From Naegleria lovaniensis (Eukaryota > Heterolobosea > Eutetramitea > Acrasida > Naegleriidae), in assembly GCF_003324165.1 (NCBI RefSeq), contig NW_025407906.1, forward strand, positions 1-23,551: a stretch of 23,551 nucleotides of DNA, read 5' to 3'. This document shows, one piece after another, positions 1,384 to 23,551 of this stretch; position 1 is the stretch's first letter; every line of letters begins with the position of its first letter. A program made the translations under genes and the position numbers. The notes under the pieces are model-generated. The model was not told where the DNA came from. It saw only the letters and a list, made by a program, of their open reading frames with translations, and did not search any database.

Positions 1384-3959
1384 TGGGCAATATATTCGTT
1401 CAGCTTTAATGTTATTGTTGATTCGAATGCCCCCAAGGAAACGATCTACCAACCCAATCATGCTCTCTTTACAATTTCTAACAGTACAGTTGTTGGCTCA
1501 ACTTTCCGTATACTTTTATATTCGAATGTGAGTCTGCAAAATTCAATATTCACATCAACCAATTTGGAAATTGGTTCTTCTAATTTGGCAGAAATTAGTG
1601 GGTGTGTATTTACTGGAAAATCCTCACTATCATCAGGAAGTGTGTTCTCTCTTGTAATTTATTCTTCAACCTTTATGGATATAATGGATTCGCAAAAGAC
1701 AGCGAGTATTGTTCGAGTCTACCATGTATTTGGAGTCCTTGAGTTTTGTCAATAATTCTGCAATGAATGGTGGAGCTCTCTATCTAAGTCGTTGGGTTTA
1801 TAATGACAAAATTACGAGTTATTATTCTTTTTATAACGTTCAAGACTTAACATTTCAGAATAATACAGCTCAATTGAGAGGAGGAGCCATGTTTTTTGTC
1901 TTGGATCCTTTAACACATCACTACACGATGCGCTTCACTAAAACAAGCTGTACTTCTAACTTGGCGAGATACAGTGGTGGATGCATGTATTCTTCAATCT
2001 TGTTGTATTTATATGAACTCAATGGATTGGAAGATTCCGATAATAACGCCCTTTCCTATGGAAATTTCATTGGTTATCCCTTAAGAAATTTTACATTTCA
2101 TTCAACGCTCCAATTTTCTAGTTCAAGAAGAATCACCATTGAAGGTGTCTCTACAATTCCAGATATTGCCATATATCCAGGAGAGAAATTACAAAACCTT
2201 TCACTGATTATTCAAAATTTCGATGGAGAATTTGTGAAATTTCTAGTAGCACCTTTATCGATCAAATATTCCTCTACATTCATCAAAATGGATTACTTGC
2301 TGACAACAACAACATCCTCCTCCTCCAACTATAATCTACAGATTAATAACTTGTCAGTGAGACTATTGTCACCAACCACATCTCAAAATGTTTCTATTAC
2401 TGCATTTCTAGTGATTGATGCTTCTAATGAAATACCTTTTAATATCATCACATTACCATGTCCTGAAAGGTACCATCTTGAAAGTAGATATTCTGTGGAC
2501 GGATTTATTTGCGTTGAAGATTCACATGTACCATTTGAAATTATTATCCCAGTAGTGTAGATTGCAACGATCATTATCGTTGGATTGGTTGCAGGTGTGT
2601 TATTTGCCACAATATATACATGTAGAAGAGTGGTTCAGAAATTGAAGACACTTGAAAAGAAACAAAGGTAGGGTGTTTTTGTTGTTTAACCATATCATTA
2701 CATTTTCTTACACTCCTGACGATGATTTTACTAATATTTCAAATGAATGTAGAGCTGAAAAGCAATTAGAATCCAACTTTATAGGAATGAAAACATATAT
2801 CGAGGGAGGTTATTCTTTGTTGCAGCACGATTTTCTTGATCGATCTAGTGAAAATAGTACCTATTTAATTCCAGTTGAGGATTTATCAATTATTAAGAAA
2901 ATTGGAGAGGGTATGTACATATTTCAACTTGTTCAATGAACTCTAACGATTGTTTTATAAAATTATCATTTCAATGTTTTGTTATTTCCTTTCGAAATAG
3001 GTGGTAATGGATCCGTTTATCATGCCAAATGGAATGGCAGTGAAGTTGCTGTCAAATCTATCAAATCGGACGTATCTAATGAAGAATCTGAAGAATTTCA
3101 AAAAGAAGCAGCTCTTCTGAGTACTCTACGTCATCCAAATATTGTCAATTTTTATGGAGTTAGTATCATTAATTCCACAAAATGTATGGTCGTTGAATAT
3201 TTACCTCGTGGAAGTTTAGATCGAATGATTTATAATTGTAGAAGCGGACAATGTGTTTTAAAACTTTTTCAAAAATTAGACATCTTGTTAGGAGTTGCAA
3301 AAGGAATGGCTTACATGCATTCATTGAAACCAAATCCAGTTCTTCATAGAGATTTAAAACCTGCCAATATACTTTTAGATCATTCATTGACTAGTAAGGT
3401 CTGTGATTTTGGATTGTCGACCATTATGGGTAATACCAATACTGCAACCACAAATATTGGAACATTTTTCTACATGGCCAATGTAAGTTGTGTGTTTTTT
3501 TACTTTTTAACATTTTGCTGACATTTCAAAATTTCAAAATTTCTCCCTATTTAGGAAATGATCGAAGGTGATGTCAAGTACAATCACAAGGTAGATGTTT
3601 ATAGTTTTGCAATTATCATGTGAGAATTGTTTTTTGAGGAGACTCCTTAAAAGAGTCAACATTCGAAAAAGTTTCAAAAATTCAAAAGTCATTCCACAAC
3701 GAGCACAGATTCCAATGAGGGTGGAGCTCGAGTGTTAATGCAAGTTCTGAAAGGAAACAGACCACTCATTCCATTTTCAATCGATAACAATGAAGAACTT
3801 GTATTATGGTTGAATGAATTTCTAGTTCCACAAAATCGAGAAATTGACATTCAAACACTTGTGAAAATTCTATCGACTTATATTGATTTGATGAAACAAT
3901 GTTGGCAAAGTAATCCTGAGCTTAGACCAAACTTTTTACAAATTGTTGAAGTGTTGTAA
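1384..3959 (+). pseudogene. Decayed receptor-like TKL protein kinase with beta-helix ectodomain
   Basis: Remnant of a single-pass receptor kinase. The ectodomain (1384-2550) has repeats of the SFVNNSAMNGGALYL and LTFQNNTAQLRGGAMFF type, as in right-handed beta-helix or Pmp-like proteins. A membrane helix follows at 2558-2620, then a juxtamembrane part and a kinase domain. Inferred introns are 2668-2752, 2911-3000 and 3483-3554. Kinase motifs are present: glycine loop GEGGNGSVY across the second intron, EVAVKSIKSD (Lys), VLHRDLKPANILL, CDFGLS, and a C-lobe Arg in ELRPNF. Lesions: no start codon, since the frame is open straight back into the isomerase gene; a frameshift between 1685 and 1750; TAG at 2558-2560 at the membrane helix; TGA at 3621-3623 where a Trp is usual; TAA at 3648-3650; and the APE motif reads Ala-Asn-Glu across the last intron. 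The splice sites and both halves of the kinase are otherwise well kept, so inactivation looks recent. A set of assembly errors is the alternative for some lesions, but not for the missing 5' end. Confidence 0.85.
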
Positions 3960-5466: not shown

Positions 5467-5826
5467 TTACAAAACACCCTTATACTTCATGTCGCTTCCC
5501 TTAATGTGATCCACCAACCATTGTTTGATGAAATTCATCACTCCATCATCGACAGAGGTCAAAGAGACTGCAGTCTTGACAAAGTTATCATGAATTTCCT
5601 TGTGAGCATCCTTTTGATCCCAAGCAACTTTTTCAAATCCATCTTCTTCAGTCTTAAAGTGCATCACAACAAAATCGAGCAATTCCTTCAAAACAGCTCC
5701 ATTAGTTCTGTCGGCATCCAAAGCATTGATCAATTCAAAGATCTTCTTGTGTTGATCATTAATGACTTGATGACCAACGCAGAAGGATTCGTCCCATTGG
5801 AATGGAGATGGAATTTCGAAAGACAT
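5467..5826 (-). CDS. Hemerythrin (non-heme di-iron, oxygen-binding)
   Basis: Single-exon 119-residue protein covering a complete hemerythrin domain. Hemerythrins bind O2 reversibly at a di-iron centre and serve in oxygen or iron handling. The N-terminal signature is present (FQWDESFCVGHQVINDQHKKIF). The seven expected ligands are there with family spacing: His19, His56, Glu60 (HFKTE), His75 and His79 (HKEIH), and His107 and Asp112 (HIKGSD). There is no signal peptide or fused sensor domain, so it is probably a soluble cytosolic protein; hemerythrins of this kind have been reported in Naegleria. It is divergent from the F-box gene across about 540 bp, which holds its promoter. The start is the first in-frame ATG, a few residues before the family core. 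Possible origin by ancient transfer from bacteria cannot be judged here; codon use does not look foreign. Confidence 0.92.
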   Translation of the reverse strand: MSFEIPSPFQWDESFCVGHQVINDQHKKIFELINALDADRTNGAVLKELLDFVVMHFKTEEDGFEKVAWDQKDAHKEIHDNFVKTAVSLTSVDDGVMNFIKQWLVDHIKGSDMKYKGVL

Positions 5827-6367
5827 GATGATGGAGCGTGGTGGATGATGATTGTTTTTTTGTTGAGTTTTGCTGACCCGGTGAGCGAATAAGGTACCCT
5901 TAAATTCTTTTTTTGACCCTGTCCTGAAAATTGCTATTTAAGGCAAAAAACATTGTGTGACGTCATTGATGGATCCAATCATTTTCTTTCGTTTACGATG
6001 TTTCTCCATTGTTACAATGTGAGGTTTCAGCAAATGAAATTTGTACTTTTAAGGTGTATGACCAAAGATCCAATTCTTGTGATGGAAAGAGTCAACTATG
6101 CGCGATTGCCTTACAATCTTGATCAGCCATTGTGAATTGCAAGGACAATACACTAGATGATGTTTTCGCAGTAAAAAAATTGAAGCAGCCAATACATTCA
6201 GTGAAAAGCCTGCAATGATGAAATAGGTGCAACCTGAGCTGGAAAGACGGAATGGCTGGAGAATCATTAAGCCAAATTCATTCTTCTTTTCAGCGAATTC
6301 ATCTTCTCAAATTTCATGACACTCTTTCTCTTGATCCTTTGTGCACTTTCGGAATTAGGGATCCATC
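5827..6367. promoter_or_regulatory. Divergent intergenic region, hemerythrin and F-box genes
   Basis: 541 bp between two divergent start codons, so it should hold both promoters. It contains an 8-bp perfect palindrome TGACGTCA at 5958-5965, about 130 bp before the hemerythrin start. Short frames on both strands (for example 5953-6135 plus and 6049-6267 minus) lack recognisable features and are not called as genes. Confidence 0.5.
5958..5965. promoter_or_regulatory. CRE-like palindrome TGACGTCA
   Basis: Exact match to the cAMP-response-element palindrome bound by bZIP factors in other eukaryotes. It lies about 130 bp upstream of the hemerythrin start codon and 400 bp upstream of the F-box gene. 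One such 8-mer in 23 kb is not statistically striking; function is inference from position only. Confidence 0.25.
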
Positions 6368-8966: not shown

Positions 8967-10367
8967 ATGCGAATCATCACTTCCCAAGCAGAGGCTTCTT
9001 CATTCTATTATTAATATTGCTCTGTGTGCGCTCAAGATGGAATTGAAACTCCTTCCGAAGTTTATTGCGAAACGTGCGAGAAATATTTTTGTGTGGTGGA
9101 TGCGAAAAGACATTTGAAACAACAACAACAACAACATGAAATGAAATTATTGGAAAGAAGCCAATATGGAATTCAACAAACGGAGGTAACATCTTTGAAT
9201 TCCTTACCTTATCAATTTTGTCCATTGCATCAATGTCCAATTAATACATTTTGTCAGACATGTCGACAAATTCTATGCTCAGCTTGTGCTGTCAGTTCTC
9301 AACACAAATCACATGAATGCTTCTTATTCTCCGATATTGACCAAGAAATGAGAGAATTATTGAGGAGAGAGCTTTCAGGGTTGCAAGAAAAGAAGCAAAA
9401 ATGGGAGAAAGAATGTCATACGGACGATGCAAGTTTGGATCAAGAAATTGAAAATATTGAAAAACAGAAAAAACTTCTCAAAATGGAATTGAATCAACTC
9501 TTTGACGAGATACACCATTCCCTACAAGAGAGACATGAAATATTGAATAATCAAGTGGACATGTTGTGTTGTGAGCGAATGGATATCATTTCTAAAATCA
9601 AAGAATTGAAACAGAAAACCGAGAAATCCATAAAAGAATTCATTAACTTGGATGAAATGGCCACATTTGACTTGATGCACAAAGCAACTAATTCTCTTGA
9701 CATTGTGGTGAAAGATTTCAACAAAATGACAGAGGAATTTCATTTTGAACAAGTGCATGACATGAAAATTTTGGATTCTAAACTAGAAATAACTGAAATG
9801 AAAAAGATTATTCAAAATTTTGGAAGAATTGAGTCGTCACATTCTGAGAATTGCACAGCAGCATGTCTTTACGATCCTGAAATCATGAACATTTCAATAC
9901 AATCTGGCAACAAGTTTGAAATGGTCAAACAAAGTTCGAATATTGAAAATCATTTTATATTTGTCAATACTGCAATACGAAGTGGAAGTATACACCAATG
10001 GAAAGTTAAAATTAACGATCACTTAGGTTGGATTGGTGTTGGAGTTTCCAGAGAAGAAATTGTCAAGTCTCAAAAATTCTCAGCATTTGAAACGCCCTAC
10101 AACACTCATAGATCTTATTTCATGAGTAGCAACGCATTTACTTGGAGTATTGAATCGAAAGAAAATCAAAAGCAACACGGATTTGAATTCTCGAAAGGAG
10201 ATGTACTTGAAATGATTATGAATGGTAACACTCGGCAGCTGACCGTTCAAAAGATGGGCTCAAATCAAAGCTATACATTTCGCAACATCATTCTTCCAGT
10301 CTATCCGCTCGTTGCACTCTACGCACAAGACGACTCAGTAACGTTTTACGATTGGAAGAGAATATAA
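8967..10367 (+). CDS. TRIM-like protein: B-boxes, coiled coil, SPRY-like domain; early in-frame TAA
   Basis: The frame has a good A-rich start at 8967 but meets TAA at 9012-9014 after 15 codons; it is then open to 10367 (about 450 codons). Right after the stop comes a first zinc finger (CSVCAQDG, YCETCEKYFC), then a poly-Gln stretch. A canonical B-box 2 follows: FCPLHQCPINTFCQTCRQ, LCSACA, then two His. A coiled coil rich in Glu/Lys spans roughly residues 105-215 after the TAA. The end is SPRY/B30.2-like (WKVKINDHLGWIGVGV, GDVLEMIM, LPVYPLVALY). There is no RING finger, so a scaffold or adaptor role is more likely than E3 ligase activity. If translation starts at the next in-frame ATG (9141), the first zinc finger is lost but B-box 2, coiled coil and SPRY remain. 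The TAA could be a real nonsense mutation, a sequencing error, or lie in an intron I cannot place. Confidence 0.65.
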
Positions 10368-13881: not shown

Positions 13882-14608
13882 GGATTGACTACTCAGAGAG
13901 GTATTAATAAATTAATTGAAGATGATGAATTTTGTTGAAGGGAGGGTGGTCCAATGTTGTTGAAACAAACAAACGGAATGCAGTAGACGTAGTATGGTGG
14001 CTGGTTTGGATGATGAGGAATTGGATCTTGTTGCTTCACTGGAATGGTGTGTAGACTTTCCAATTATTTTGTTTCAAACTGAAATATTAAATAAAGTGAT
14101 TGCAAGAACATGAAATGCAGAAGGACAAGGAGTTCGTTTCAAAACAGAAGGTGTTAATAACGACCGGATGCAATCAGATTTCTTGTTTTTCTTCACTCCA
14201 AATCCTAGCAACAAGACTTTTCAGGAAAGTTTGAAATTTGAAGATGGGTTTTTTTTGAAGACATTGAATTTGGAGGGAAAGATTGAATTCTGGAAAAGGA
14301 AATTGCATTGTTTGGAGAGAGGATTCTTGAGACTGCATGACGTGTGTTCGTCTACATCTTTCCTGGAGAAGGGTGTAGTGAAAAGGTGAATGGTTGATTT
14401 GAGAGAATGTAATTTAAATGAACAATGTCTTGTGTTGTTGTCAAATGAACAACGTGTTGTCACAACAATGTTCTCCAAGAACAAGTGATTCACTTTCCAA
14501 TGGAGAGTATTAGGACAATAGGAAAGTAAATTGGAAAGTGAAATGCAACAATGGTGAATGAAGTCCAATAAATTATTAAAATTTTCAATAGGAATAAAAA
14601 TTTAAATC
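13882..14608. promoter_or_regulatory. Divergent intergenic region, low-complexity and DUF971 genes
   Basis: 727 bp between two divergent starts. It contains the inverted repeat at 14489-14542. A 73-codon ATG frame at 14168-14389 (+) has no recognisable features and could be chance or a small protein. A longer minus-strand frame (14221-14568) has no ATG. Both genes' promoters should lie here. Confidence 0.45.
14489..14542. repeat. 13-bp perfect inverted repeat upstream of the DUF971 gene
   Basis: Left arm 14489-14501 (TTCACTTTCCAAT) and right arm 14530-14542 (ATTGGAAAGTGAA) are exact reverse complements with a 28-bp spacer. A further partial copy (GGAAAGTAA) lies just before the right arm. 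The element ends 66 bp before the start codon, where it could be a factor-binding pair or a leader hairpin. Confidence 0.5.
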
Positions 14609-15481
14609 ATGCTTTCAAATCACTTGCTCCGATCAGGATTCAAATCGAACACAGGATTGGCGATTCATAAATTGCTCATGTCCTATCATCCGCATCAACA
14701 ATTATTATGCAGTCCAGTGAACACATCAAGTTTTGTAGAACCATTTACAAATCAAATCCACAATTTTTCAATCAAGCTCCGATGGCATAGCAACACGAAT
14801 AAAGAAGAAGATAGGACCACCACAATAACATCAACAAGCTCCAATAGAGATCCTAGTAATAGAACAGAAAATCTTTCTAATATTCGTGAAACATTTCATC
14901 ATTATGCCTCCACCATTCCGAGCCATTTGGTGAGAGAATCAACACTCCCTCATCATCATCAACAACATGTCATCGATAAACCCTTGGATCCCAAACATCC
15001 CTATGGTCCCGATCAAGTCAAAGTCCAAGAAATCAAATTAAGAAAACAACGCAAACAATTAGAATTACATTTTGAAATTACTCGTTCCATGATCATCATG
15101 AATAATAATGGAGAGGAAGGCTCACAATCTTCAACACTCGATCTGGTTGGTACTCTCCCAGCCGAGTTATTGCGAGTAGAGAGCCCTTCTGCGGAGGTTC
15201 AAGGAGAGAATGGTCAAAAGAGACTCATCTATGGCAAGAAGTTTGTTCAAATCTTGCAAATTGAAACAGTCGGTTCATATGCAATCAGGCTCATCTTCTC
15301 GGATGGACATGATAGTGGCATCTATTCGTGGAGTTACTTGTACGAAATGGCACAACGGAAATATTCCTTGATGAAACAATATATTAAAGATTTGAGAGCA
15401 GCAGGAAAGAGTCGTTATCCTAGAGAATATTTGAAAAAGATGAAGGACCAACAGCAACCAAGTTCTTCAAAGAATGAGTAG
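14609..15481 (+). CDS. DUF971 (GBBH-like N-terminal) protein, probably mitochondrial
   Basis: 290-residue protein. The N-terminal 60 residues are rich in Ser/Leu/Arg/His with almost no acidic residues until about residue 47, as expected for a mitochondrial targeting sequence (MLSNHLLRSGFKSNTG). A disordered linker follows. The C-terminal half holds a DUF971 domain (PF06155): TLPAELLRVESPSAEVQG (about 180-197), then ILQIETVGSYAIRLIFSDGH and DSGIYSWSYLYEMAQ (about 215-248). The same fold is the N-terminal domain of gamma-butyrobetaine and trimethyllysine hydroxylases and is fused to the Fe-S scaffold HCF101 of plants, which hints at a role near Fe-S assembly; that is inference. No hydroxylase domain follows, so it is a stand-alone version. 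The Ctf18 ATG lies only 108 bp downstream on the same strand. Confidence 0.8.
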   Translation: MLSNHLLRSGFKSNTGLAIHKLLMSYHPHQQLLCSPVNTSSFVEPFTNQIHNFSIKLRWHSNTNKEEDRTTTITSTSSNRDPSNRTENLSNIRETFHHYASTIPSHLVRESTLPHHHQQHVIDKPLDPKHPYGPDQVKVQEIKLRKQRKQLELHFEITRSMIIMNNNGEEGSQSSTLDLVGTLPAELLRVESPSAEVQGENGQKRLIYGKKFVQILQIETVGSYAIRLIFSDGHDSGIYSWSYLYEMAQRKYSLMKQYIKDLRAAGKSRYPREYLKKMKDQQQPSSSKNE

Positions 15482-15589
15482 AATCATGGAAATCATGTGT
15501 GGAACATGTTGAGATTTAAGTGTTTTAAAAATGCGTAACGGTCATTTTGTTAGACTTTCCCCGCCTTTTTTTTTTAACAAATTCAAAAA

Positions 15590-18500
15590 ATGTTCAAAAG
15601 AGACCGAAGCCAATTTGAGTACAAAGTTTCGGAAGCCAATCATCACGAGCATGACGAGAGTGATGATGATGAGCATACTCTCATATCATCCACACTTGAA
15701 GAAAACATTAGAAATCATGCCTCTAAAGAATTGAAAAGAATTAAATTTCTTTCTCCACCTTCTCATCCGACCATGAGTAGTATCATTCAGGATGATCTCA
15801 GCAAGTTATCTTCGGAATCATCGTTATTCAATGGAATTCATTATGAAATTCCTTCTCTAGATACAGACTTTATTACTTGCATTGGCTCAAAAGGAGGTGA
15901 TATGTGTTATTTGACTTTTTTGGATGATGAAAAAGAAGAAACACGTGTAGCAACTAGTTCCCGAGAAGCAATCTTTGCCAAAATACCAGCCAACAGAATC
16001 TTGAAAAAACCAATGAGTGAATTATTGGAAGATGTACAGCGACTTAGATATGAAGAAGAGATCAAGAAAAAGGCAAGAGCTCAGACGAATGCATCCTCCC
16101 GTCACGCTGTTGATGCTGCAGATATGATGAATGATGTTCAATTTTCAAGCAATGCAAAACAAAAGTATGAGCTACTTGTTGACAAGTATGCTCCAACCTC
16201 GTATTTGGATTTACTAACAGATGATGTAGGTACTTGATAATTTTCTGTGTGCCTCTAACAATGACATTCATGTCACATTATTAATTTATGATGGAATCCT
16301 TTGGATAAAAGAAAACCAATGCTGAGGTATTGAAATGGATCAAGGAATGGGATCCCATAGTATTTCCAGAAACAGCCAAGACGAAAAAAATCAAACCAAC
16401 AACACAAGAAAAGCCAAAGAATCCATTAATGACAGTTTTTGGTTCAGTGAGCTCCCAAAAGTCGGCAAAGGATGAGAAGAACACTTCCAACAAGTTTAAT
16501 AACAGTTCAAAATCCTCAAACAATGCAACCAAGGGACCAGATCACCGTATTTTGCTCATTTCAGGTAAGTGTGAAATTATCATTTTTACTTTTTCTTCGA
16601 ATCTTAATGTCACTCTGAAAATACCCTTCGTGCAGGCCCTCCTGGTATTGGTAAAACAACTCTAGCGCATATTTGTGCCAAGCAAGCAGGATATGAACCA
16701 CATGAAGTGAATGCATCTGATGATCGTTCTAAGGACAAACTCATTCCAGAAATTCAAAAAGTGACCCAAATGCAAACAGTTTTTGGTAGCAAAAAACCCA
16801 AACTCTTAATATTAGATGAAATTGATGGAGTTCAAAACTCTGAAAACAAGTCTGTCATTTCAGAAATTCTGAACATGACCTATCCTAAAAACAAATCATC
16901 GTCTCAAAAAGACAATAATGAAAGTTCGAGCAAAACTAAAAAGACTAAATCAGGAGTGAAGCTAGATAAGAAGACCAAAAAGAAGAAGGATCAAGGCATC
17001 ATGAGACCTATTATTTGCATTTGTAATGACCAGTAAGTGGCACGCTTTTGAATACTCTATTTTTTACAAGAATATTCTATGGACATTCTTAGTTATTCTC
17101 CTGGCCTTAAAGAATTGAGACAAAAAAGCAAGTTAATTATTTTCAGAAGAGATGACTACAGAACTGATAACACACAACGAATTGTAGATCGACTTGGTAT
17201 AATCTTACGAAAAGAGAGTCATCCTTTAGCCAACGTGGGTAAACACGAATTGACACAATTTGTAAAGGACTCTGACAATGATATTCGTTCATGTCTCAAC
17301 ACTATTCAATTTATGGGTTTTCATGGATCCAATTCTATGAAAGAGTTAATGACCATTTCGAAAGATGTCAAATCGGATATTTTCGATGCCATGAATCTCG
17401 TCTTTAAAACCAAGAAGATTGACAAATCCTTAATTTCCAAATATCAGGAAAACCGCATTTCACTATTTAATTCGTTTTTAAGCGAATTGGACAAGTTTGA
17501 TTCTATTGCGAATGGATGTTTTGAAAATTATTTATCATTCTGCTCTGGAAGTTCTATGAATGACATTGCAGACTCTCTTTCATTCCTTCAATGGTCTGAC
17601 ATGATTGACGTTGCTTCCAATCGATATCAAGAACGATCCCTTCAAGTCTACAGAGCTGCTTCACTTGTGAAATTCTTTGTTGCTTGTAAAAAGTCTGGAT
17701 TTGACACTAGCAATGACTTTATTCAATATCCAAAACAGCAAGGAGATGCCAAACGATCCTTCAACCACAAACACAACGTTCTCAAATCTCTCTTTTTGAA
17801 TTGTTTTACTCATGAATTTGTAAAGGCCAATAAGAACGATAGAGACTCACAGACTAGTGGAAACTTGTTGACAACATCCTCAGTCAAAGACATGGCCACT
17901 GATCTCGTACCATATTTGTATCAAATTCTCGATACCAAATGTTTGTCAGGACTCAATACTGGAGCTGCTCTCTCATCTTTGGCTCATTCTGGAATGAAAG
18001 GCCTCAAACAAATGATCAAGAGCGATCAAGAACGTCAATCGTTTGAAGCAATTTTGGATATTTGTTTATCGTACGGTATTGGAGTGAAGCAGACCTATGT
18101 GAATGAAAAATATGAAAGCACATTGGATCCTCCCTTAGATGAAATTGCATTCTATCCTTTGAAATCATCACAGAGTGGTATGGATGTGAATGCCAAGGGT
18201 CTTGTCACTCCTTCCAAAGTGAACAAGACGGACATTGCATCCTACTTTAAAAAGCCATCATCATCTAGCAGCAGCAATAGTAGTAACAGTAGTAACAGTA
18301 GTAACAAACAAGTAGAGAATGGTACAAGCAATGTATTGTCTGACCATTTTAAAAAGATTCTCTCGTCAGCTCTACACTTTGAAAAATTGGATAGAAAGTA
18401 CGGAAAGAAAGATCAAAAGGAGGCTCCTCAAAAAGCATCCTCAAATGATCTTAATTCTCTGTATGCACAATCTCCAAAACATACAAGTGCACAGACAGTC

Positions 18501-18620
18501 ATGGAATATAAAAAGAGAAGAAGATCACAACTGAAAGGAACAATTTCCATGTATTTGGAATTTCATGATGGAATGACAAATTCCATTCGAAGACCTGCCA
18601 AGACTAGTGAGTTTTTGTAG
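15590..18620 (+). CDS. CTF18: Ctf18, clamp-loader large subunit (alternative RFC), 4 exons
   Basis: AAA+ ATPase that, with Dcc1, Ctf8 and Rfc2-5, loads PCNA at replication forks and supports sister-chromatid cohesion. Exons are 15590-16225, 16312-16564, 16636-17032 and 17093-18620 (phases 0, 1, 2; all GT-AG), giving 937 residues, close to the size of animal CHTF18. Motifs: VDKYAPTSYLDLL before intron 1; Walker A GPPGIGKTT (297-305, its first Gly split by intron 2); NASDDRS; Walker B LLILDEIDG (Asp-Glu-Ile-Asp at 357-360); sensor 1 ICICND followed by YSPGLKEL across intron 3; and DNDIRSCLNTIQF. The C-terminal end (LEFHDGMTNSIRRP) matches the conserved Ctf18 tail that binds Dcc1-Ctf8. RMRP-like PIICICND and NASDDRS favour Ctf18 over Rfc1 or Elg1. 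A Lys-rich insert lies between Walker B and sensor 1. A PIP-box-like peptide (KTDIASYFKK) sits before a Ser/Asn repeat. The last 17 bp overlap the convergent gene. Confidence 0.93.
18255..18305 (+). repeat. Ser/Asn codon microsatellite in Ctf18
   Basis: TCA/AGC-rich triplets followed by three exact copies of the 9-mer AGTAGTAAC (18279-18305), coding Ser-Ser-Asn repeats in a predicted disordered linker. Length is likely to vary between strains. Confidence 0.8.
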
Positions 18621-21600
18621 ATGATAATCGAGTGTACATGTCCATCTTTCTTTTTGCGTGCTCTTTCATGTAAACGTCTAATAAATGATTCAAACGATTG
18701 TTCAAAAAACGATGCATGCGATTTGAGCTTTCTCCAAACTTGTGCTTCAAAATTGAATTTAAGGTTGAAAATTCAAATGAATGATCGTCAAGTATTTGAT
18801 TCCATTGAGCGTAACCATGTTTGGCACATCCTCTCAATAAAATCAAGTCATGAGCTTTGTTCCACCACGGATAATATGCAGAACATGTTGTACCATTCTC
18901 ATTAGTGTCGTCATGTATCTGGTGTTGTTCAAGTATGGTCTCAACTTGTGCAAGGTCCTCGTTGTTTTGAATGTGAGAATTCTTGTACTTGTGTACCACA
19001 TGATAAATGACAAACATGCAAGCAATACGCTGTAAAATTTTCACATTATTCAATCGATCTGTGGGAGTACCATCTGAATAATGTGAATAGCGCTGATCTA
19101 CTTGCTCTGAGAAATGATCTAACATGAATATACCAAATTCAGTCACTTGTTTCAGTGTTTTTTGTAAATTAGAAACTCTTCTAATGATATTAAAAAACTC
19201 GTACCATTTCTGGTCCTGTGTTGGAAAGCCCAAACCATATCTCCACAAAGTCGCTACAAACATCATTCGTTCTGTTGGCGTAAAACCTAGAACCGAAACC
19301 GAGTGATTGGGAAAAATTTTGATTTTCGGATTGGTGAGTTGTCTTTCAATAATTTTCAATTGAATCGTTTCATCCTCAATTTGATATTTCAATGCTCGAA
19401 TATTGGAACTAATTTTCTTTCGTTGTGTGACATCTTTGACTGTTTTGAGAGTGGCACTCAATTCCTCTACTTGATTCATCAATGCATTGAGATTGTCTGA
19501 GAGTTCATTTGCTACAGTTTCAGAATATTGTTGAATTTCTTCCTCACTGTATAATAAATCATCTGAAGAAGAGTTTAAAAATTGTTCGAAAAATCGATCC
19601 ATTGTTTCATCTTGATAATGAAGTAGAGATAATTCCATGGCAGTGGTATCCTTTCGTTTATGATCGTTACTGCCATTCATATGTTCCATCTTGACCAATG
19701 AAAGATCTGCTGTAGTTTTTGCAGACTTGATGAGTCTTGTCCAAAATATTTCACCAGGAAGATTGTCAATCTCTGCATGTAGAGAAGGGGATTTTCCAAG
19801 AGAGGGTACAGAACTCGTGGTGGGATTTTCCTTCCTTTGAAAATGTGTAATTTTCACATGGCTTAATGATTTGGCTGAAGAGTGAATCATCATATCGTAT
19901 GCTTGTGGTTGTTGTTGTTCCGTATGATTATTCTTCTCTGATAAAATTTCATCCAAGATACTCTCTGATAGATGTAGACTTTCCATGGATTGTAAAAATT
20001 CTAGTCCTTCTTGAGAAGTGAGTTCATCTAGCAATGGATCCAAACTCAAAGTGGAATCCTCACTGTTGTTCGTGAATAAATCTTTTGCAAAAATTCGTAA
20101 TGACGTCTCAAATTCAGAGAGTTGCTTTAAAAACATTCCTCGTATCATTTCATTTTCTGATAAATTTAAAATCATTGTTTCAAATTCTTCACAACACACG
20201 AGTCGTAGAATGGTTGTGCGTTTGTCAATTTTACAGAATCGTGTGAGTTGTTGCGAATCTATGATTGGATGATATGCAGAATCCATGACAATAATTGTAT
20301 CGAAATTCAATAAATCTATGGATGGATGAAGTTGAGTGCTCATAATTACAATAGGTGCAGTGGTGTTTGTTGTGGCATTATTCTTATTGGTTGACTCGCT
20401 GGATACAATCAATTGATATTGATACTCTTTGAATCGAATCAGTTCTTCAATCACGTATGGATAAGAAGATAAAATAAGTACTTTTTGCTTGAGTGATTTG
20501 CATCGTTGAAGAAGAGCCTCTAACAGAACTAACTTGGATGAGGACTGAATGAAATATTTCATAAATAATTCGTTATTCTGTGCAAAAGGTTCTTCCTTTT
20601 CGAGAAAGAATTGCAAGTAAGGATGTTCACAAGTCCTCAAAATATCTGAAAACATTTGTTGAAAGAGTGAAGAGTATTGCTGAGGTGTGTCACTGCTCTT
20701 AAAAACATTGGTGAGAGCGTTGAAATAGGCACTTTTCTTAAATATTTGTCTAAAGAAATATTTGTGGAGAGGTGTTAAATTCACAGTAAGCAACAAGTCT
20801 GCTCGTGGTTTGATGCATGCAAGAACGTCTTGCCGCTCTCTTCGTAGTAATAATTCTTTTGGAAAGTCCTGTATCGGACTGTTAGAATTTAGCAATGAAA
20901 TAAAAGGTCCACATGTCTCTGAATTATACATTTTGTCACTGATAAAGAGTGTAAAATCTATTTTCAGTTCTTTCAGCATCAGGAAAAGGTTTGATTTTGT
21001 TTTTTTTAACACATGTGCCTCATCTATAACTGCAATTGGCCATAGAAAATATTTGAACCATGTCTCGTCGTTTACAATACTCTCAATGGTTGTTAAAATA
21101 ATATTTACAGAGAAATTCAATCGATCTGTAGGTGTCAAATTTCGCTTTTGAATCGTTTGAATAATGAATTGCTTAATAATTTTTCTGTCATCAAGTAATC
21201 CGTCGTATACTGCAACTCTGAGATCAGGTGCCCAAAATGTAATTTGCTTTTTCCAATGCTCAATTCGATTTCGAGGAGAAATTATTAAAAACGGACCAGG
21301 TACATTATGATACATGGACATGGCTCTTAGGAAAGATATAGCTTGAGTTGTTTTGCCAAGACCGTGTTGATCTACCGCATATTGTAACATTCAAATTTAG
21401 AAATGTAAGGGCAGTGATACACTATTAAAACATACCACACAGTAAACAGGATTTGTGATGATTCCACATGGACCTCATCCATGCCACACCTTGAAGTTGA
21501 TAGTCAAATAATTCAAAATTGTGTCCTTCAACATTTGTGACACTCATTTTCGAAATTCCACGAGCCGTACGTTGAGATTCAGTTCGTTTCCTTGACAACA

Positions 21601-22363
21601 GCTCTGCCTCTGAAAGAATTTTGTAAGACTTTTTTCTATGACTTTCTATGAATCTATTATATAAATCTGTGGCCTTATTTTCATTGGTCTTTTTTTCGTG
21701 CTTCAAAATATCACTCTTAGATTCCCATGTACACCCAGAGTAAGGAACGTCCATCCATTTGATTAAAAAATAATTCCCATTATTTGCAATGATTTGTTCT
21801 ATTTTTTCCCAATTTGAATGAAATAGATCAATTTCCATATCACGACCATAATGTTCTTCGAACCACATGAGCTTGACTGTGGCATTTTCTTGAACTTCTT
21901 CGCGTGACATCCATTTACAATGCCAATGAGATTGACCGCTTAATTTCACAAAATATTTCATTTTCCCATCATGGAATCGTTTACGTTTTAAAATTGTGTC
22001 AATAGTATTTGTGTTATGATATTGAATAGTATTAGGATCAAAATTTTCTTCCTCTTGTGCAGTGGCTTTTATAGATGACGCCATGACTACAGACGATGAT
22101 GATGATGCTGATGGAATGTTGCCCTGTATTTCCACATCAGATTCTACATTTGTTTTTCTAATCTTTTTCGGAGGTACTTGTTCCGAATGTTTTTTCATAG
22201 AGGGCGATGGTGCAGTAATAATGACCACATCATCATCATCAGAATCGGACAAGCAGGTACTCGGTGATGTGGTTGATTCCGCCACCAATTCCTTCCGTTT
22301 TTTCAAATCCAACAACAGTGAAGAAGAAGCCTTTTGCATTTTGATATTTTTTTTAAATTTCAT
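18604..22363 (-). CDS. Mi-2/CHD3/4-like chromatin remodeler with eroded ATPase, 2 exons
   Basis: Exon 1 is 22363-21436 and exon 2 is 21371-18604, separated by a 64-bp GT-AG intron that splits an Asp codon; product 1231 residues. Order: acidic/Ser-rich N-terminus; double chromodomain (about 118-172, with SGQSHWHCKWMSRE, and 185-238, with YFLIKWMDVPYSGCTWES), close to CHD3/4; SNF2 ATPase (about 284-720); a CHD3/4-type middle domain (LGFTPTERMMFVATLWRYG, near 1003); and a C-terminal block LILLRGCAKHGYAQWNQIL (1141-1177) like the Mi-2 C-terminus. No PHD fingers are seen. Walker A (DQHGLGKTT, 310-318) and DEAH (426-429) are kept. Motif III, usually GTPLQN, reads ISDKMYN; the Arg-Ile-Asp-Gly block before motif V is missing; motif V lacks the usual Arg-Ala-Gly-Gly; and motif VI reads QLTRFCKIDKRT instead of the QAxxRxHRIGQ type. 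It may be a weak or inactive remodeler. A second possible start is Met9. Confidence 0.88.
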
Positions 22364-22892
22364 TTAATTTTTTATTTTGGCGGGATGTTGTGTGAATTGT
22401 TAAACATTAAATATTATTATTAAAAGATGAAACATTTTCCTTATTCTCAGATGGATTTGTTGTTTCAACAGATTCTCTTGATTCTCCACTTTGAAATACT
22501 CCTTCCATAGTGTCTCGACTTGAAAGATTAGAACCCAAATCTCCTTGTTGCAAATTCCTTTGGGAACCTCCAAGAACTTCCTCTTGTTTACTGCTATAAA
22601 CGTCTTTTTTACCAATGTTTTCAATAGTGTCCATCCTGATGATAAGTCTAGGAATACAATAGATTGTTTTCTTTTATTTGGAATGAATCATGGGTCTGAT
22701 ATGTGTGAAAGAAGGCAATGGTTTCTATCCTTGATTGGTAAAGATGGGAAATTGGTATATTTGGAAGAATTCTTTCTTAAGAAAAGTGTCATTTAACAAC
22801 ATTGAACTGTGAAGACATTTCGACACTTGTTGAACTTTTGTTCTAAAATTTTCAATATCTTTGAATTTAATATTTAATACATCACAAAAAAA
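22364..22892. promoter_or_regulatory. Divergent intergenic region, Mi-2-like and membrane-protein genes
   Basis: 529 bp between divergent starts, very AT-rich near both ends. It should hold both promoters. It also contains the minus-strand small frame at 22407-22634; other short frames here lack an ATG or recognisable features. Confidence 0.4.
22407..22634 (-). CDS. Possible small protein, unknown
   Basis: 75-codon ATG frame coding a hydrophilic peptide rich in Ser, Glu, Asn and Gln (SRDTMEGVFQSGESRESVET) and ending in a run of Asn. The composition is protein-like, and the frame lies just 44 bp upstream of the Mi-2-like start on the same strand, so it could be a small gene, a last exon of one starting farther right, or chance. 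No motif is recognised. Confidence 0.2.
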   Translation of the reverse strand: MDTIENIGKKDVYSSKQEEVLGGSQRNLQQGDLGSNLSSRDTMEGVFQSGESRESVETTNPSENKENVSSFNNNI

Positions 22893-23551
22893 ATGACCAA
22901 ACCAAGAAGGGTAGCTCTTTCCTCCCACAACTATGATGATAAGAATCACAATCATGAAAGAATGGGGAATAATGTTCATTCGGAACGTTCCGATATTTCA
23001 ACCAATTCCAAGGAATCATCATCGTCGCTGCCAAGATCATCCACTTCTTCAAAATTTTCTTCCATTCTGATTGCTGTATTACCGACATTATTAACTTCCG
23101 TTATGGATCTCTATATTGATATGCACTTGACGAAATATTATTTAGAAGATATTTGTTCCGATAATTCCAATCATGATCAGCCATATTCTTTACAATGTAT
23201 TTCTCCATCCCGATTTGGATTAATTCATTCCTTGATCCGATCTCTGAGTTTATTTACTGATTTTTTCAGTGCAACCATCATTGATAGCCATTTACCGTTT
23301 CAACAACCGACCTTATTAATAGTGTTGGCACCACTGTATTGGTTCAGTATTTGTGCCTTATTCATGGGTCCTTCAATGATTCACAAGTTTTCAAACCATG
23401 AAAATATGACAAGGTGGCTATTTTCAACCGATGTATGGTATACACTATGTTCCTTAATGAAGAATATGATTCCGTTACGAGTGTTGTATGATTCAAGCAT
23501 GATGAGAATGTGTAAAACTTGGAATGTGAAAGATCGAGCCGATTTATTTTT
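22893..23551 (+). CDS. Membrane protein of unknown function, 3'-partial
   Basis: Frame with an ATG in an A-rich context (AAAAAAATGA) that stays open for 219 codons to the window edge. The first 50 residues are polar and Ser/Asn/His-rich (cytosolic-type leader). They are followed by hydrophobic segments near residues 52-68 (SILIAVLPTLLTSVM), 104-122 and 133-152 (LLIVLAPLYWFSICALFMG). A loop with two Cys lies between the first two (DICSDN, LQCISP). No family is recognised. The gene continues beyond the window, so size and topology are unknown. Confidence 0.65.
   Translation, partial: MTKPRRVALSSHNYDDKNHNHERMGNNVHSERSDISTNSKESSSSLPRSSTSSKFSSILIAVLPTLLTSVMDLYIDMHLTKYYLEDICSDNSNHDQPYSLQCISPSRFGLIHSLIRSLSLFTDFFSATIIDSHLPFQQPTLLIVLAPLYWFSICALFMGPSMIHKFSNHENMTRWLFSTDVWYTLCSLMKNMIPLRVLYDSSMMRMCKTWNVKDRADLF

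Follow-up and report, generated by a model that had tools for sequence, protein, structure and literature searches.

The stretch analysed here (the window) comprises positions 1 to 23,551 of contig NW_025407906.1 (C84) in the 30.69-Mb, 97-contig genome assembly of Naegleria lovaniensis. As would suit a close relative of Naegleria fowleri, an adenosylhomocysteinase encoded in this genome departs from PDB 5v96, of that species, at 12 of 442 positions. Its minus strand carries, at 22363..18604, a gene for a chromatin remodeler of Mi-2 (CHD3/4) type whose ATPase keeps Walker A and DEAH while motifs III, V and VI are lost in whole or in part. The gene has 1231 codons and a stop with a single 64-bp intron. 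Splicing and translation confirmed the coordinates, strand, length, one intron and open frame of the original prediction.

21436..22363, minus strand: exon 1, with the N-terminal tail, tandem chromodomains and start of the SNF2 region (splicing and translation; Chromo E 1.8e-12)
21372..21435, minus strand: intron, 64 bp, GTATGT..GGTAG, phase 1, immediately before Walker A (position shared with a CHD gene on contig C45, length with the copy on contig C16)
18604..21371, minus strand: exon 2, from Walker A to the stop codon (splicing and translation)

The intron splits the Asp codon preceding GLGKT in phase 1. Its splicing appears credible because the canonical CHD gene on C45 (L011) has an intron at the identical site and phase. 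A second copy of the window gene lies on contig C16, with 98.5% identity over 9.2 kb including the neighbours. It encodes a product of 1229 amino acids, has a 64-bp intron and retains the frame and the same motif losses. To judge from the sequence, this copy looks like the other haplotype of the window gene. Over window positions 14344-23550, C84 seems to be an alternate-haplotype counterpart of contig C16, and contigs C20/C71 and C14/C96 are further haplotype-like pairs by appearance.

Introns inside the ADEMGLGKT (Walker A) codons were seen in 7 of 12 SNF2 genes examined (L020 unresolved), at four positions. These are Asp phase 1 (the window gene and L011), Asp phase 2 (L012 and L021), before the first Gly (L013, and L014 of the L014/L015 gene) and before Thr (L016). 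For L013 and L016 the sites were identified by eye in the DNA sequence.

Kinship of the protein

Pfam matches on the 1231-residue protein comprise chromodomains (Chromo E 1.8e-12, two stretches), a partial SNF2 domain and two C-terminal domains, CHDII_SANT-like and CHDCT2.

21854..22027, minus strand: chromodomain 1, residues 113-170, degenerate, with WHCxW in common with CHD4 (Pfam and CHD4 comparison)
21689..21814, minus strand: chromodomain 2, residues 184-225 (Pfam)
18976..19305, minus strand: CHDII_SANT-like domain (PF06461), 59 bits, cut-off 28.8 (Pfam)
18640..18873, minus strand: CHDCT2 domain (PF08074), 28.4 bits, cut-off 27.7 (Pfam); 32.1 bits in the whole-genome search

Tandem chromodomains, SNF2, CHDII_SANT-like and CHDCT2 are shared, in the same order, with CHD4/Mi-2 (CHD3/4/5 and PICKLE; subfamily II CHD). 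The Mi-2 type originally proposed is borne out. Both chromodomains can be recognised, although chromodomain 1 alone, at 22-23 bits, falls under the Pfam cut-off of 25.1. Among solved structures human CHD4 is the top match by sequence (E 1e-54), with separate, weaker matches in each of the two C-terminal blocks. There are also differences from CHD4/Mi-2. The window protein has 1231 residues rather than the 1927 of the CHD4 chain, its ATPase coupling motifs are lost, and neither a PHD finger nor CHDNT is listed by Pfam (no PHD finger in exon 1 at E<=1; no CHDNT among the matches of the 1231-residue protein). Plant members of subfamily II retain only one PHD finger, according to an excerpt of PMC2507757. 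Because the PHD finger is without a match and motifs I-VI are incomplete, the protein is named Mi-2-derived here rather than a full Mi-2 member.

Trees add little to this assignment. A whole-domain tree places the window protein among divergent sequences on a branch of 2.56, compared with 0.77-1.88 for the other tips, perhaps through long-branch attraction. A lobe-1 tree groups it with L011 and human CHD4, leaving yeast Chd1 outside, at low support (ultrafast bootstrap, UFBoot, 80 and 74). With a long branch in one tree and low support in the other, the Mi-2 assignment rests on domains and not on trees. Six patterns from the C-terminal part matched no stretch of the viral contigs, and phage records gave no match.

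The state of the ATPase

The motifs were read from an alignment with 11 canonical SNF2 sequences, namely nine from the same genome, human CHD4 and yeast Chd1. Two intron-broken genes (L014/L015 and L020) and a human CHD1 fragment were excluded from this comparison.

21343..21371, minus strand: motif I (Walker A), DQHGLGKTTQ (residues 310-319), first base in exon 1, GLGKT intact (alignment)
21001..21030, minus strand: motif II, VIDEAHVLKK, intact (DEAH at 426-429; alignment)
20920..20946, minus strand: motif III position, lost, reading FISDKMYNS against LLTGTPLQN in CHD4 (alignment)
20824..20856, minus strand: LLRR element at the start of lobe 2, kept (alignment)
20308..20346, minus strand: motif V position, mostly lost, reading IMSTQLHPSIDLL against LLSTRAGGLGINL in CHD4 (alignment)
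20212..20253, minus strand: motif VI position, QQLTRFCKIDKRTT, with the first Arg kept, the second Arg changed to Lys and GQ deleted (alignment)

Walker A and DEAH are both intact, as had been claimed, and the other claims made for this domain stand with one amendment. DKMYNS, inside ISDKMYNS (453-460), occupies the GTPLQN columns in place of motif III. The segment before the LLRR element is shortened, with 24 residues from motif III to LRR compared with 38-76 in the 11 canonical sequences and 47 in CHD4. The D-G/R/F block that precedes motif V is also shorter and has lost its conserved residues; the glycines of motif V are gone too. The amendment concerns motif VI, which was said to lack the usual paired arginines. 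The second is indeed lost (K690), together with the deleted G-Q pair, whereas the first (R687) is retained, as is Q683.

The conserved columns kept are 5/6 for motif I, 4/4 for motif II, 1/8 for motif III and its flank, 2/11 for IV/IVa, 3/10 for V and 5/12 for VI. Motifs I and II together keep 9/10 columns against 32/78 elsewhere (Fisher p=0.005, the grouping having been picked after the data were seen). By lobe, 17/29 columns are kept in lobe 1 and 24/59 in lobe 2. L021, the weakest of the canonical sequences, retains 25/38 and 48/68, so it is lobe 2 that clearly stands out, and lobe 1 to a lesser degree. Profiles of the two lobes, made from 65 canonical SNF2 rows of prokaryotic and viral-contig origin, give 99 bits for lobe 1 (103-223 in the 11 canonical enzymes) and 31 bits for lobe 2 (194-218), and none of five shuffled copies exceeds 0.5. 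The lobe-2 match runs over positions 1-225 of 235. By this alignment lobe 2 is present end to end, with most of its motifs stripped. Pfam SNF2-rel_dom covers profile positions 24-159 of 290. Helicase_C has no match in the window protein at E<=1 and is present in 9/9 of the own-genome paralogues of the alignment. HDA2-3 matches of the paralogues were taken to reflect shared SNF2 sequence and were not used.

Active SNF2 remodelers have the full motif set I-VI, including GTPLQN and RxxRxGQ, and the window protein does not. In SNF2 motors the coupling of ATP to DNA movement depends on residues in motifs III, V and VI. Their loss from a protein that retains the P-loop and DEAH suggests that it may bind nucleotide and not translocate. 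ATP binding without remodelling would be plausible for such a sequence.

Apparent uniqueness and maintenance of the gene

Domain searches of the whole genome, which work exon by exon, list two places for CHDII_SANT-like, both being the copies of the window gene. Three places are listed for CHDCT2, of which two are again these copies and the third lies under the cut-off at E 0.88. SNF2 has 39 matches at E<=0.01, and other SNF2 genes typed by their domains include INO80, ISWI, BRM, HSA-bearing and MOT1 types, plus the canonical chromodomain remodeler on C45. Like the window gene, this C45 gene encodes a double chromodomain and SNF2 and has an intron at the same site before Walker A. Unlike it, the C45 gene has canonical helicase motifs and neither of the Mi-2 C-terminal domains. 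Apart from the window gene and its copy, no Mi-2-type gene was found in this assembly, the completeness of which is unmeasured. The advised check for a second, canonical Mi-2 thus turned up none, and the suggestion of a lineage-specific paralogue was not borne out, with no other Mi-2-type gene above the cut-off beyond the two copies. Because no other was found, the motif loss struck the sole copy seen.

What if a canonical Mi-2 exists and is merely absent from the assembly, so that the window gene is a divergent paralogue after all? The unmeasured completeness would allow this, and an exon-by-exon search could overlook a domain cut by an intron. However, INO80, ISWI, BRM and MOT1-type genes and the canonical CHD gene were all found, the one other CHDCT2 place is under the cut-off and there is no further CHDII_SANT-like place. 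This makes a missing Mi-2 improbable.

Comparison of the two copies gave 17 synonymous changes, 17 non-synonymous ones and a single two-residue indel. The non-synonymous to synonymous ratio (pN/pS) is 0.31 over the whole protein (p=8e-4 against neutrality; two copies, transitions weighted double). It is 0.14 in the chromodomains (p=0.023), 0.28 in the ATPase (p=0.022) and 0.15 in the C-terminal domains (p=0.028), these p values being uncorrected. As controls, a canonical MOT1 pair gives 0.23 and two pieces of another SNF2 gene give 0.10 and 0.00 (4 and 2 differences), while neighbouring open frames range from 0.09 to 1.42. The copy comparison suggests purifying selection on the protein, ATPase region included. 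Neither the ATPase nor the chromodomains appear relaxed to neutrality between the copies, which had been one of the checks proposed. The fold was modelled too. From an alignment of 65 canonical rows, 44 of 109 non-redundant rows being left out, AlphaFold2 gave a predicted structure in which both lobes remain (pLDDT 79.9).

Perhaps the gene is nevertheless in early decay, with its function gone and its frame still unbroken. The long branch would fit this, as would the N-tail, with 0 synonymous and 4 non-synonymous differences, and the indel polymorphism in the IV/IVa block. Against it stand the 1231-codon frame open in two copies, the retained intron and shared losses, the pN/pS of 0.31 overall and 0.28 in the ATPase region and the 9/10 columns spared in motifs I and II. 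The original view that this is not simple decay therefore holds, and early decay is very improbable. Almost no weight can be given to the idea that the motif losses are an artefact of undetected introns or of errors in the sequence, in favour of which nothing was found. The two assembled copies are identical at motifs III, V and VI, and lobe 2 aligns full length in a single frame. No canonical motif III, V or VI string occurs in the three gene-strand frames that could restore what is missing (the opposite strand holds one R-x-G-Q).

A putative scaffold, its parallels and its neighbours

What might such a protein do? We think it probable, though far from assured, that the only Mi-2 gene found in this genome now encodes a pseudo-remodeler kept as a scaffold for chromatin and partners. 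There would be no DNA translocation, the coupling parts (motif III, the IV/IVa block, the motif V glycines and, in motif VI, the GQ and second Arg) being gone. The chromodomains and the remaining SNF2 shell would dock the protein on nucleosomal DNA. The C-terminal domains would hold partner proteins, with a histone deacetylase (HDAC) complex the obvious candidate; HDAC genes are present in the genome. The protein would then act as a repressive scaffold, perhaps locked in one conformation by bound nucleotide.

The original prediction spoke of a chromatin reader. As a reader of methyl-lysine this is doubtful, with VKL in chromodomain 1 at the site of CHD4 VKW, and the CHD4 pair itself binds DNA. 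In the available part of PMC3476528, the tandem chromodomains of CHD4 bind DNA, and no binding of the isolated pair to K4- or K9-methylated H3 peptides was detectable. The same part reports that the CHD4 PHD fingers are required for DNA-stimulated ATPase activity, a point on which, as its authors note, Drosophila Mi-2 differed (PMC3476528). No PHD finger is listed in the window protein. Compared with the reading of histone marks, docking and scaffolding by way of DNA and partners is the better fit.

Several points weigh against a maintained scaffold. The role is proposed from sequence, copy comparison and predicted fold, and the fold prediction leaned on the 65 canonical rows. That lobe 2 persists at full length could also mean a residual enzymatic role. 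The selection test amounts to 34 differences in one pair, with small counts; in the middle region neutrality is not rejected (pN/pS 0.48, p=0.35), and all 4 differences in the N-tail are non-synonymous. The indel and S634N both fall within the lost IV/IVa block, so this stretch may drift freely. As to a NuRD-like setting, which is putative, genome searches for ELM2 and MBD gave no match, both of them run without a positive control.

A nucleotide switch would be a refinement of the scaffold rather than its opposite. ATP would be bound, perhaps slowly hydrolysed, and would alter the grip on chromatin or partners without translocation. The sparing of motifs I and II relative to the other columns, post hoc as that grouping is, speaks for this, as do the retained Q683 and R687. 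However, motif III has been lost along with the second Arg of motif VI, and ATP binding is putative. We regard a switch as rather unlikely. Only tentatively would we suggest that a eukaryote gave up Mi-2 remodelling yet kept the Mi-2 protein, its only Mi-2 being an ATP-binding, non-translocating nucleosome clamp set by nucleotide. On that reading, Mi-2 could serve as a scaffold independently of its motor and go on doing so after the motor is lost.

The scaffold reading has a parallel in vascular plants. As excerpts of the sources describe, MOM1 is a CHD3-derived silencing protein with a degenerate and dispensable SNF2 domain (PMC2507757), a CHD3 descendant that silences without that domain (PMC2507757, PMC10338684). 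The window protein likewise has CHD3 ancestry and a degenerate SNF2 domain; no common origin is claimed. Arabidopsis MOM1 retains helicase motifs of lobe 2 only and acts through CMM2, whereas the window protein retains motifs I and II of lobe 1 and has no intact Mi-2-type gene found beside it. Another likeness is with Hda2/Hda3 of the yeast HDA1 complex. An excerpt of PMC7062823 describes their SNF2-like lobes as non-catalytic and DNA-binding, with a DNA-binding domain and coiled coil, and as the proposed scaffold of the deacetylase. Unlike the window protein, they have no chromodomains or Mi-2 C-terminus. The available portions of the Naegleria literature on Mi-2, chromodomains and SNF2, including PMC10538959 and PMC9928731, hold no description of such a protein; PMC8040595, with one mention of 'chromodomain', stood outside the comparison. 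Degenerate CHD3 proteins are already known in MOM1, and a genome whose sole Mi-2 is degenerate was not found in the literature searched.

Where an intact copy exists, the importance of Mi-2 as motor and as scaffold is hard to separate. An only Mi-2 that lacks motor motifs yet is apparently selected is a natural separation-of-function experiment. If the scaffold reading is true, a CHD3-to-scaffold change like that of MOM1 took place outside plants, in a genome with no intact Mi-2 found.

The Mi-2-type gene and a convergent plus-strand gene overlap at window positions 18604-18620 by 17 coding bases, including both stop codons, and this neighbour resembles CTF18 (CHTF18 match E 4e-7). Elsewhere in the window, the minus strand has an open frame of the hemerythrin family at 5467-5937 (E 2.6e-9). 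On the plus strand at 1685-3521, a polymorphic-membrane-protein-like repeat frame is followed by a protein kinase domain frame, possibly as one receptor-kinase gene with introns. A B-box and SPRY (TRIM-like) open frame at 9015-10367, also on the plus strand, has a pN/pS of 1.42 between copies, from 6 differences only.
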